In this document: positions 14,000-64,000 of the stretch, piece after piece
How positions within the stretch are numbered: position 1 is the first letter of the stretch
Layout: each line of letters opens with the position of its first letter
Source: a virus
Length of the DNA: 64,000 nt
Direction: 5' to 3' (one strand)
IMG/VR virus record: IMGVR_UViG_3300035670_000028
Span: 83,187 to 147,186 of that record
Made by a program: the position numbers and the translations under genes
Notes under the pieces: model-generated
Databases searched by the model: none
Seen by the model: only the letters and a program-made list of their open reading frames with translations
What the model was told of the DNA's origin: nothing

Positions 14000-14404
14000 A
14001 TGCATAGTGTAGGTGATATTGTATTCATCGTCTCGAACAAGAAACGCCAGGTCTTTCCTGTGCAGGTCGTCGAGCAGGTGATTAGAAAGACACTTGAGGG
14101 TGAGCAGGTCACCTACAAGGTGAAGATTCCTGGTGCAGACACCAAGCCTGTCGATCTGCACGCAATCGATGGTACCGTTCACTTGTCACTCAAGGCTGTG
14201 CGGGAGTTCCTGTACTCTCAGGCGACAAGTGCAATCGATGAAGTCGTTAGCACTGCCCAGGAGCTGTGTGCCTCATTTGGGGGCGAACCTGACAACGGTC
14301 ATGTGACTGAGGCAGCTGCACACGAGAACGGCGCGTCCAACAAGGTAAAAGTGAAGCTAAGTGACGGGACCAGTGCAACGGTGACCCTACCTGATGTACA
14401 GTGA
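14000..14404 (+). CDS. GDIV-type small SH3-like protein
   Basis: 134 residues. It begins MHSVGDIVFIVSNKKRQVFP, the G-D-hydrophobic-V start shared by about 25 small proteins here, followed by strands typical of an SH3-like barrel. The C-terminal third is a separate helical part and a short beta stretch. No function is known. Expression is probably limited by the hairpin upstream. It precedes the exonuclease gene and may be coupled to it. Confidence 0.55.
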   Translation: MHSVGDIVFIVSNKKRQVFPVQVVEQVIRKTLEGEQVTYKVKIPGADTKPVDLHAIDGTVHLSLKAVREFLYSQATSAIDEVVSTAQELCASFGGEPDNGHVTEAAAHENGASNKVKVKLSDGTSATVTLPDVQ

Positions 14405-61079: not shown

Positions 61080-61676
61080 ATGAGCACGTCATTGAAGATA
61101 CAGATAGGCATAGGAATCGCAATACTCGTCCTCGCGATCGCCGGAGTCATCTGGGGCATCTCGAGCCACAGTGAGCCCGGTCTCATGTCAGTGTGCTGGA
61201 GTCAAAGCACGGGCACAGCACTCTACGACTGCGAAGGCGGTGAGGAGATCAGGTGGCCCCGTGAGCGGATCCCACTCTCAGTCAGCACTGATGGCCTGAT
61301 AGGGGAGACGCAGACAGCGATCGACCTGATCAACAGTCAGGTGGGATGTGAGCTCCTGACGTACGCGATGTACGATGACACATCAAACGACATCATCATC
61401 ACCTCGGAGGGCGTGCTTGACCAGAGCACATCGAGGGGCGGCGCGACATGGCACCTGATGGACGGCACGAGGATGAGAGCTCGTATAGATCTCTATGCAC
61501 CCGGTGACCTGGCCCAGCGTGTCATCGTGCATGAGCTCGGGCACGCGCTAGGCCTAGCTCACGACTCTTATCCCGCCTCAATCATGTATCCCACACAGAG
61601 GAGCTCGACAGACCTCCAGTTCATTCGAGTGTCAGACAGCGACAGGGCACTGCTTCGAGATCTCTACTGCGATTGA
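61080..61676 (+). CDS. Membrane-anchored matrixin-like metzincin
   Basis: 198 residues. One N-terminal membrane helix (about 7-27). VIVHELGHALGLAHDSYPAS (His151, His155, His161) with IMYP (Met169) is the full metzincin HExxHxxGxxH zinc site and Met-turn. An N-terminal helix and Cys residues suggest it works in the periplasm or outside. Phage-encoded metzincins are unusual. It could degrade periplasmic or envelope proteins. An octamer promoter lies upstream. Confidence 0.78.
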   Translation: MSTSLKIQIGIGIAILVLAIAGVIWGISSHSEPGLMSVCWSQSTGTALYDCEGGEEIRWPRERIPLSVSTDGLIGETQTAIDLINSQVGCELLTYAMYDDTSNDIIITSEGVLDQSTSRGGATWHLMDGTRMRARIDLYAPGDLAQRVIVHELGHALGLAHDSYPASIMYPTQRSSTDLQFIRVSDSDRALLRDLYCD

Positions 61677-61957: not shown

Positions 61958-61986
61958 GTGCAAGCAGAACAAAGCTGTGGTAGACT
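61958..61986 (+). promoter_or_regulatory. Promoter GTGCAA-N17-TAGACT
   Basis: Precedes the tandem GDLV array. Six bases after the -10 is an ATG (61993) for an 8-codon frame, MTQEVAQL, whose stop overlaps the first array gene. Confidence 0.6.
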
Positions 61987-61992
61987 TATAGC

Positions 61993-62019
61993 ATGACACA
62001 AGAGGTCGCACAGCTATGA
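61993..62019 (+). CDS. 8-residue leader peptide (tentative)
   Basis: MTQEVAQL, then TGA that overlaps the ATG at 62016 (ATGA). It would start at the transcript 5' end and couple into the next gene. Too short to prove. Confidence 0.25.
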   Translation: MTQEVAQL

Positions 62020-62231
62020 GGATCGGTGATCTCGAGCACTTCGCCCCCGGAGATCTGGTCCGGATCTGCCTCCCTCGGAAGCAGCTCTCTCCTCCCCGAG
62101 TGGAGGCCCTCCGAGGCCAGGCTGGATTGATCGTGGCCACCCAGGGCTCCGGCTTCAATGTGAGGTTCGATGTTCTGGTGGGCGGCACCGTTCAAGAGGG
62201 TATCTTCGCCCTCGATCTGGAGCACGCGTGA
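62016..62231 (+). CDS. GDLV-type small SH3-like protein, array gene 1
   Basis: 71 residues. HFAPGDLVRICLPRKQLSPP, GQAGLIVATQGSGFNVRFDV and GIFALDLEHA: GDLV opening, G-L-I-V strand and closing D-L-E. First of nine overlapping members. ATGA with the next. Confidence 0.6.
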   Translation: MRIGDLEHFAPGDLVRICLPRKQLSPPRVEALRGQAGLIVATQGSGFNVRFDVLVGGTVQEGIFALDLEHA

Positions 62232-62410
62232 GCACACACAATTTCTCCCCCGGCGATCTCGTGTGCATCATTTATGGCTCCGCAGCTCCGAAGCCCTATC
62301 TCGTTATTGATGCGTGGATCTCCTTCGGGCAGCCTAGGTGCACGATCATCACATCCCGAGGCCCGGTTAGCCTGTGGGCGAGCGAGCTCTTTCGTGTGGA
62401 GGCACCGTGA
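62228..62410 (+). CDS. GDLV-type small SH3-like protein, array gene 2
   Basis: 60 residues with a GTG start in the overlap. FSPGDLVCIIYGSAAPKPYL, VIDAWISFGQPRCTIITSRG and VSLWASELFRVEAP. The plan is complete but compact. Overlaps the next gene (TGATG). Confidence 0.6.
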   Translation: MSTHNFSPGDLVCIIYGSAAPKPYLVIDAWISFGQPRCTIITSRGPVSLWASELFRVEAP

Positions 62411-62613
62411 TGAACGGCGGCCTGAGGGTGGGAGATCTCGTTCGTGTTATCCGCGCTCCGGACCAGCCCAAGTGGGTTCGTGATCTCGCGGGCCAGGTGG
62501 GGATCGTGGTGGAGATCGGATCTCCCTCGAACACGCACGGTAGGAATGTGGTGGTGATCGGTGGCTCCCCACACCCGGGATTCCACCACCTCGATATGGA
62601 GAGGGTGCAGTGA
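62410..62613 (+). CDS. GDLV-type small SH3-like protein, array gene 3
   Basis: 67 residues. LRVGDLVRVIRAPDQPKWVR, LAGQVGIVVEIGSPSNTHGR, then VVVIGGSPHPGFHHLDMERV. One of the most typical members. ATG overlaps the previous stop and the next start overlaps its own. Confidence 0.6.
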   Translation: MNGGLRVGDLVRVIRAPDQPKWVRDLAGQVGIVVEIGSPSNTHGRNVVVIGGSPHPGFHHLDMERVQ

Positions 62614-62900
62614 TGGGCAGGCAGAGCATTTACACCCTCAGGCCCGGAGATCTCGTTCGCGTGCTGGCAACTCCGGATATCATGAGGAATTACCCTGATT
62701 ACGCCCACTGCACCGGCACAGTGATCGAGATCCGGCCCGATGAGTTCTACGCGGATACCCAGCGGCCCGATGGCGGCCCATGGCAGGTGGCGAGGATCTT
62801 CGTTCCCGGTGTGGGGAAGCGCTACGGTGGCTCACCCACGAAGGAGTGGAGCCTGAAAGTGTGGGGCGAGGATCTCGAGCTCCTGCAGGAGGCTGAGTGA
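62613..62900 (+). CDS. GDLV-type protein, array gene 4
   Basis: 95 residues. YTLRPGDLVRVLATPDIMRN, HCTGTVIEIRPDEFYADTQR and WSLKVWGEDLELLQEA. Longer middle than its neighbours. A GTG three bases earlier is an alternative start. Confidence 0.6.
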   Translation: MGRQSIYTLRPGDLVRVLATPDIMRNYPDYAHCTGTVIEIRPDEFYADTQRPDGGPWQVARIFVPGVGKRYGGSPTKEWSLKVWGEDLELLQEAE

Positions 62901-63187
62901 TGATTGAAGTAGGTAAGCTCTATTCTTGCTCCAAATACTTCCTCCTGCTTTATCCAGATACAGATAGTGCTTCTCTTGCTTTTGAAGCTGGTAAAATCTC
63001 CGAACCTTTTCACGCTACCTACTACTGGAGCAAACAGTTTGGTAAATCTGTAAGCTATTGTAATCCAAAAACTCCTCTCCTTGTTCTCGCAGTAGAGGAA
63101 AAATATGTTGAGGTTCTGGTAGGAGATAAACGGGGTTGGATTATCAATATAGATTGGCTAGAGATTAAGGAGATCTCTTGCACATGA
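62900..63187 (+). CDS. GKLY-type SH3-like protein, array gene 5, A/T-rich
   Basis: 95 residues. MIEVGKLYSCSKYFLLLYPD, ATYYWSKQFGKSVSYC and LLVLAVEEKYVEVLVGDKRG, ending WLEIKEI. Its DNA is clearly A/T-richer than the rest of the array and its opening differs from GDLV, so it may have come from another source into the array. Confidence 0.55.
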   Translation: MIEVGKLYSCSKYFLLLYPDTDSASLAFEAGKISEPFHATYYWSKQFGKSVSYCNPKTPLLVLAVEEKYVEVLVGDKRGWIINIDWLEIKEISCT

Positions 63188-63390
63188 GCCCGCACCCCGG
63201 AGATCTCGTGAAGCTAACCTCAACTCAGGGCGCTGTGAGCATTGGCATCCTCATGGAGGAGAAGCACTCGCACGGCCTGGGCATGAAGGTGCCACCCACA
63301 ATGGTGATCTGGCAGGTTCTCATCCCGCAGGGGGTGTACTCCCACATTCGCGAGGAGGGGTGGAAGATCGAGGTGCTCAGTGCTGCCTGA
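63184..63390 (+). CDS. GDLV-type small SH3-like protein, array gene 6
   Basis: 68 residues. MSPHPGDLVKLTSTQGAVSI, GILMEEKHSHGLGMKVPPTM, IWQVLIPQGVYSHIREEGW and KIEVLSAA. Starts inside the end of the previous gene. A TTG at 63178 is an alternative start. Confidence 0.6.
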   Translation: MSPHPGDLVKLTSTQGAVSIGILMEEKHSHGLGMKVPPTMVIWQVLIPQGVYSHIREEGWKIEVLSAA

Positions 63391-63574
63391 GCCCGGCGAT
63401 CTGTGCAGGTGCAAGGAGGGGCGCGGATACTCCTGGTGGGGAGAGCACCTGTGGCTGATGGTGGAGCCTCAGGGCCCCCGCCGCCACGGTGTGATCTCTG
63501 CAGTGTTCCTCAGATCCGATGGCGATCTGATCGAGGCACCGGCATCATTCTTCGAGGTGATCGGTGGCGAGTGA
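63380..63574 (+). CDS. GDLC-type small SH3-like protein, array gene 7
   Basis: 64 residues with a GTG start inside the previous gene. LPEPGDLCRCKEGRGYSWWG, LWLMVEPQGPRRHGVISAVF and IEAPASFFEVIGG. The plan is kept with Cys in place of Val. Confidence 0.55.
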   Translation: MLPEPGDLCRCKEGRGYSWWGEHLWLMVEPQGPRRHGVISAVFLRSDGDLIEAPASFFEVIGGE

Positions 63575-63755
63575 TCGTATTCGTGCAGGAGATCTCGTGT
63601 GGGCGCTCGATGAGCACGGGATAACATCCACCCTCGGGCTCCTGATCCGGATGGGATTATCTAAATCCAACAATGATCTCGCCCTGGTTCTGGAGTGCAC
63701 AGGCAGGATCACATGGCACTACCTCACAGATCTAACACCGGTTGAGGATGAGTGA
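63564..63755 (+). CDS. GDLV-type small SH3-like protein, array gene 8
   Basis: 63 residues with a GTG start. RIRAGDLVWALDEHGITSTL, GLLIRMGLSKSNNDLALVLE and ITWHYLTDLTPVEDE. Complete plan, including a closing W-strand and D-L. Confidence 0.6.
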   Translation: MASDRIRAGDLVWALDEHGITSTLGLLIRMGLSKSNNDLALVLECTGRITWHYLTDLTPVEDE

Positions 63756-64000
63756 TGGGTAGGAAGAGGCGCAGCTTCGTATCGAGGATCAAGCCAGGGG
63801 CACTGGTAACCTGTGATAACAAGGTTCTGCCCTGCATGTGCACTGCGCTCGATCCCCACCAGGATCCCTGGAATGTTCCCCGCAAGGTGGCACTGGGGAG
63901 GGGTGAGGCTGCCCTCGTGGTGGAGAAGCACTCGCGCTCGATCGGTGCGCACATTCCGGTTTGGGTGCTGCTGATCAGGGGAGAGTTCGCCTTCGTGGAT
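63755..64000 (+). CDS. GALV-type SH3-like protein, array gene 9, 3' partial
   Basis: 82 codons to the window edge without a stop. SRIKPGALVTCDNKVLPCMC opens it, then VALGRGEAALVVEKHSRSIG and IPVWVLLIRGEFAFVD. The position and start overlap continue the array, so it goes on to the right. Confidence 0.55.
   Translation, partial: MGRKRRSFVSRIKPGALVTCDNKVLPCMCTALDPHQDPWNVPRKVALGRGEAALVVEKHSRSIGAHIPVWVLLIRGEFAFVD

Follow-up and report, generated by a model that had tools for sequence, protein, structure and literature searches.

What holds together a row of small overlapping genes whose members hardly resemble one another? The question is raised by the right end of a 64,000-nucleotide stretch of viral DNA, hereafter the window, which covers positions 83187-147186 of IMG/VR virus record IMGVR_UViG_3300035670_000028 (147,186 bp; G000). 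Nine consecutive plus-strand open reading frames (ORFs) span window positions 62016-64000, each overlapping the next, and most encode the motif GDLV. A preliminary description of the window had read them as an overlapping tandem array and had attributed the array to recent duplication; we confirm the former and find no support for the latter. The explanation that we consider likely is an architecture of SH3-like cassettes that are joined by overlaps and exchanged at the joints. On this view the phage has two arrays made up of small single-domain genes, for the most part SH3/KOW-like; each cassette is self-contained and bears at its 3' end the ribosome-binding site, and often also the start codon, of the next gene. 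With the ribosome-binding site supplied in this way, one promoter could drive a translationally coupled row, and cassettes of the same design, ending and beginning with the joint, could be added, lost or swapped with frames intact.

The 14-bp joint

The architecture is clearest outside the window. A within-genome profile search of G000 located a second array at 63.4-66.9 kb of the record, upstream of a DnaE-type polymerase gene, together with scattered family members at 132-137 kb. The genes of the second array at 64380, 64561, 64742 and 64917 overlap the preceding gene by exactly 14 bp, and an N-terminus MK[VAP]G[DE] and a C-terminus [SG]E[GA][GR]* are encoded by the same DNA, so that G000:64380-65084 carries a variant of the 14-bp joint. 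The DnaE gene led to 25 related contigs, among them a 202-kb relative (G009) with a similar array and several 14-bp overlaps ending in SESR*, although the joint had not been used as a query. Arrays were then collected by a pattern of two MKVGDLV starts 160-190 bp apart with GGT as the glycine codon, since GGTGA supplies the stop codon of the upstream frame. In IMG/VR this pattern returned 79 stretches, whereas 84,980 prokaryote genomes gave no match; with GGA, GGC or GGG in place of GGT, the search of IMG/VR likewise gave none.

The joint statistics comprise 847 distinct family genes and 476 adjacent links, 392 of which (82%) overlap by exactly 14 bp. In the canonical joint, TGGAGGTNATCAGTGAAAGTCGGTGA, the upstream frame reads LEVISESR* and the downstream frame holds a Shine-Dalgarno site, a spacer and MKVGD; the consensus (TgGAGgTnaTcA, gTGAAAGTCGGTGAttTgGT) is read in the same way, as LEVISESR* upstream and as Shine-Dalgarno site, spacer, start codon and MKVGDLV downstream. 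A segment of ~30 bp thus carries the end of one gene and both the Shine-Dalgarno site and the start of the next. Judged from the DNA, the joints are the conserved element, a short sequence in which a ribosome-binding site is overprinted with a stop and a start.

Codon choice shows a constraint on the joint beyond that on the peptide. The glutamate of LEV is encoded at joints by GAG in 273 cases and by GAA in 8 (273/281 GAG), whereas glutamate elsewhere in the same genes uses GAG 411 and GAA 443 times (411/854, 48% GAG). In members that have no family gene after them, the same LEV codon is GAG in 87 and GAA in 37 cases (87/124). Since the LEV half was absent from the search pattern, the GAG bias testifies independently to selection on the DNA. 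We predict that the conservation of the C-terminus LEVISESR mostly reflects the ribosome-binding site concealed in its codons and not a function of the peptide.

A joint of this kind could also follow from dense packing and translational coupling alone, held in place by its Shine-Dalgarno site, start, stop and peptide ends, with ordinary mosaicism and selection for intact genes accounting for the shuffling and the joint having no role in recombination. The commonest overlaps among prokaryotic genes are 4 nt (~45%) and then 1 nt (PMC3887535), and six of the eight joints in the window are of that kind, as this explanation would have it; the scant homogenisation of joints within contigs, given below, fits it too. 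It does not readily explain why 82% of the family links use one 14-bp overlap when the 4-nt form makes up only ~45% of prokaryotic overlaps, nor a breakpoint that falls at a joint and leaves a hybrid gene, as in the first pair of relatives described next. We therefore regard packing and coupling alone as a rather doubtful account.

Gain, loss and reshuffling of cassettes

Two pairs of near-identical contigs differ by the presence or absence of a single cassette. Over the region compared, L095 and L126 agree to 99%, and L126 has one additional cassette of 232 bp that lies between two shared cassettes and has 14-bp joints on both sides. The L095 product takes its start codon and Asp codon from the left copy and the remainder from the right gene, which makes it a hybrid of both copies and places the breakpoint at the joint. 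L103 and L105 (about 99% identical) differ by 176 bp, with the breakpoint 3 bases beyond a 24-bp near-identical repeat. An insertion or deletion separating L086 from L100 was dropped as a cassette case, its segment lying outside the array logic and seemingly ending at a tRNA.

Comparisons between arrays extend this picture. Among 192 short similarity segments, drawn from 114 locus pairs of which some are related, a joint marks the start of 157 and the end of 147 (46 and 29 under random placement), and 128 cover exactly one cassette. In 78 of 90 comparisons, orthologous cassettes are followed by different genes. Breaks of similarity in the relatives, a set that does not include the window array itself, thus fall at short conserved sequences on gene borders. 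The preliminary description had expected array content to vary between strains, and in these relatives it does differ and is diverse; it had also suggested that the array may be a place where new small effectors are made, a putative role with which the diversification is consistent.

Ordinary tandem duplication followed by divergence, in which unequal crossing-over multiplies genes and every copy inherits the same joint, would make joints alike without any exchange. It has recognisable paralogs in its favour, namely genes 1 and 3 and genes 6 and 9 of the window, as well as the slightly greater frequency in the related arrays of pairs at least 60% alike in their bodies among adjacent genes (33/476) than among non-adjacent ones (148/3445). 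Yet the members can barely be aligned any longer, while most joint positions remain 80-100% conserved. Neighbours, moreover, are usually unrelated and are shuffled between contigs, the closest relatives of cassettes are largely seen in other phages and not alongside, and the window has no extended DNA repeats. We consider duplication and divergence improbable as the general origin of the arrays.

In the cassette architecture, recombination between joints, beyond selection for intact genes, would cause the shuffling. As joints are not notably homogenised within contigs, the mechanism may be homologous exchange at joints or general mosaicism followed by selection. Whether the overprinted coding segment also serves as a recombination joint, so that DnaE-encoding phages with a T4-type capsid build up and reshuffle large SH3-like repertoires without an integrase, is a proposition to which we give an even chance.

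The array in the window

In all likelihood the array in the window represents this architecture in an older or looser form. Of its eight joints, six are 4-bp and two are 11-bp overlaps, and at several of the 4-bp joints an in-frame ATG lies right behind the GTG, the use of which would leave a 1-bp overlap. By inspection of the upstream sequences, a Shine-Dalgarno-like GGAG, GGAGG or GAGG lies within the end of the preceding gene for every start but the first, and at all eight joints this site and the start codon fall within the previous ORF or at its end, the arrangement of a coupled operon; translation would be coupled along the array. The 14-bp form as defined for the relatives (aGTGAAAGTCGGTGA, with the Shine-Dalgarno site in the upstream LEV codons) is absent from it.

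That absence is one of several points that weigh against the cassette architecture as an explanation. Only four of the nine window proteins match the family profile clearly, and we found no close relatives of the window array that could show gain or loss; protein and DNA searches of phages and IMG/VR gave no relatives of single window genes. The gene calls are mechanical. The contigs were collected by a start-motif pattern, and conservation on the start side of the joint is therefore partly ascertained. Finally, joints within a contig resemble one another hardly more than joints from different contigs do, with mean differences of 6.99 and 7.26 of 32 positions (standard deviation 0.13), so that there is little sign of local homogenisation; the difference amounts to only about 2 standard deviations, and we do not claim it.

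The suggestion of recent tandem duplication rested on likeness of the DNA around the motif. The likeness itself is real in part, GGAGATCTCGT being present in four copies, but the remaining DNA is hardly repeated. The genes share almost no DNA outside the motif, the array contains no extended DNA repeat, and protein identity among its members is at most about 40%; in the related arrays, too, no more than 33 of 476 adjacent genes reach 60% likeness in their bodies. Since a single gene pair exceeds codon-shuffled controls beyond the motif (score 36; highest shuffled score 30), recent tandem duplication was rejected for the window array. Judged by their sequences, genes 1 and 3, and likewise genes 6 and 9, are old paralog pairs.

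GDLV, which the preliminary description had assigned to the array as a whole, occurs in six of the nine genes; one further gene has GDLC, gene 9 has GALV, and gene 5 has no such motif. All lie on the plus strand. Gene 1 (62016-62231; 71 aa) carries MRIGDLEHFAPGDLV and is homologous to gene 3 (40% identity, E=6e-8). Gene 2 (62228-62410; 60 aa, PGDLV) starts with GTG in a 4-bp overlap, with its Shine-Dalgarno site GGAG within the end of gene 1. Three further GTG starts have an ATG alternative: gene 3 (62407-62613; 68 aa, VGDLV; ATG at 62410), which is predicted to form an SH3-like barrel, gene 4 (62610-62900; 96 aa, PGDLV; ATG at 62613) and gene 5 (62897-63187; 96 aa; ATG at 62900), which has VGKLY in place of GDLV. 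Gene 6 (63184-63390; 68 aa, PGDLV) overlaps gene 5 by ATGA and is a distant paralog of gene 9 (33% over 33 aa, E=5e-4). The two 11-bp overlaps introduce gene 7 (63380-63574; 64 aa, PGDLC) and gene 8 (63564-63755; 63 aa, AGDLV), each with GAGGTG as the Shine-Dalgarno site in the end of the preceding gene (IEVLSAA* in gene 6, FEVIGGE* in gene 7). Gene 9 (63752-64000; PGALV) runs off the contig end; the record and the window end together there, so that members cannot be counted further rightward.

Are these genes a family at all, or unrelated small ORFs in which a short motif recurs by chance or through codon bias? Against a family profile built without the window rows, with 640 shuffled proteins as background, genes 1 (E=0.0017), 3 (E=2.4e-6), 6 (E=0.0009) and 8 (E=0.012) outscore every shuffled protein, genes 4 (E=0.64) and 7 give borderline scores, and no significant match was obtained for genes 2, 5 and 9. 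The unmatched and weak genes, and the lack of any Pfam or PHROG family above cut-off, are what chance recurrence would predict; the four clear matches are not, and neither are the constant position of the motif, the shared fold of the one window member modelled and the purifying selection seen in relatives (below). Chance recurrence is accordingly very unlikely. Gene 5 stands apart, with no family or phage match and no relative in any collection searched. Its guanine-cytosine content of 0.40, against 0.54-0.64 for the others, makes it look foreign and acquired, and this composition hints at recent import.

A single GTGCAA-class promoter-like site precedes the array, as the preliminary description had stated: GTGCAA-N17-TAGACT at 61958-61986 on the plus strand, recognised by consensus only. 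The class GTGCAA-N16-18-TAnnnT has eight occurrences on the plus strand of the genome, compared with 0-3 in ten Markov shuffles and one in the reversed sequence, and it is plausible that the site is the promoter of the array. Plus-strand occurrences in the window are at 14373, 17114, 20157, 23105, 42209, 54394 and 61958, mostly closely upstream of start codons. Directly upstream of the array, 61080-61676 encodes a protein that is membrane-anchored or secreted and has a matrixin-like zinc protease motif, HELGHALGLAHD.

Fold, carriers and known systems

Over the gene bodies of 66 ortholog pairs from the relatives, omega is 0.13, and the proteins are therefore real and under purifying selection. 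A five-strand SH3/KOW-like barrel is predicted for family members. AlphaFold2 models a canonical member as such a barrel with a predicted local distance difference test (pLDDT) score of 89, and gives window gene 3 a related model (pLDDT 80) with four strands by DSSP. Foldseek matches KOW domains (eS4, NusG, Spt5), PetP, PsaE, NdhS and YorP with probability near 1.00, and also many unnamed phage proteins; for window gene 3 the matches include PetP and the KOW domains of Spt5/NusG. To KOW, PetP and YorP the template modelling (TM) scores are about 0.6-0.77, and no PDB match has E below 0.009. Searched with a profile, PDB sequences gave weak matches to Spt5 and NusG. By sequence, gene 3 comes closest to the KOW family PF00467 with 15.1 bits, below the gathering cut-off of 22.3, and searches of Pfam, PHROG and PADLOC gave no family that reached its cut-off or recurred beyond a few members. 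For defence or anti-defence families there were only two weak PADLOC matches. A variable accessory repertoire of small proteins for host interaction is our best, though tentative, suggestion for their role. The 79 stretches encode 799 of them (non-redundant at 80%), and hundreds of unannotated small phage proteins are thus grouped under one genetic architecture and probably one fold.

The carriers are apparently a large group of related, uncultured, DnaE-encoding marine phages. DnaE was found in all 23 array contigs tested, 38-66% identical to that of this phage over the best piece, whereas in reference phages it reaches at most about 30% among the matches listed. A T4-type gp23 capsid gene was found in 16 of the 18 relative genomes searched, with no match in the window's own contig. 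Array genomes hold 11-29 family members, whereas six other relatives by DnaE or flanking genes, some of them fragments, hold 0-1. The array proteins gave only spurious matches to reference phages (E at least 0.04); by DNA, one array matched nothing among phages, and that of G009 matched only through an internal GMP reductase-like gene. The PetP, PsaE and NdhS fold matches had prompted a cyanophage reading, which was rejected as none of 18 genomes has a Photo_RC (psbA/psbD) gene.

Further features of these genomes deserve mention. The G009 array is interrupted by the GMP reductase-like gene and flanked by a GIY-YIG-like and an SprT-like protease gene (L063 4337-5003 and 6048-7070). The dnaE gene of G000 (G000:69182-73276; L010 9182-13276) has an in-frame insert of ~140 aa, absent from the relatives compared, that starts with Cys and ends in HN followed by Thr, and is probably a mini-intein. 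Seven otherwise unlike G000 proteins (at 696, 16901, 61141, 63063, 65664, 92999 and 118807; in the window, ~9.8 and 35.6 kb) have in common an N-terminal peptide, M(R)ITxxQLRxIIR[EQ] or a variant, that may be a signal for sorting or capsid targeting.

In predicted fold, and in G-D-[LV]-V at the first strand, the array proteins resemble the KOW/SH3-like small barrels of NusG, Spt5 KOW, eS4, uL24, PetP, Bacillus subtilis YorP and phage DUF4314; unlike these, they are free-standing proteins of 55-95 aa in large variable sets, without significant sequence membership. Their carriers can be set by description beside the Far-T4 phages, likewise uncultured and with a T4-type gp23 capsid, although such arrays are not described in PMC4360716, where neither tandem arrangement nor overlap is mentioned. 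Coupled overlapping genes (ATGA/TGATG), reviewed in PMC12548453, also have the next start overlapping the previous stop and the Shine-Dalgarno site in the upstream gene; the arrays differ in repeating throughout their length a single 14-bp overlap of fixed sequence, one linked to both terminal peptides (N and C) of one family. In the open-licence literature we found no paper with the string KVGDLV and no description of such arrays. Integron gene-cassette arrays share the plan of a promoter followed by a row of interchangeable small genes, but here the overlap of neighbouring genes leaves an attC-like site no space between them, the joint consists of coding sequence that includes a ribosome-binding site and start, and a dedicated integrase is not implied.

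Boundary sequences, short conserved sequences at gene borders where modules exchange, were reportedly proposed for the mosaicism of lambdoid phages, and the joint resembles them in just these respects. Theirs separate unrelated genes at few places and are not findable at most mosaic boundaries (PMC3029335), whereas the array joint recurs among up to 13 members of one fold and lies wholly within coding sequence. Gene overlap, translation and modular evolution are thus tied together in one short sequence, and the old boundary-sequence idea becomes directly testable.
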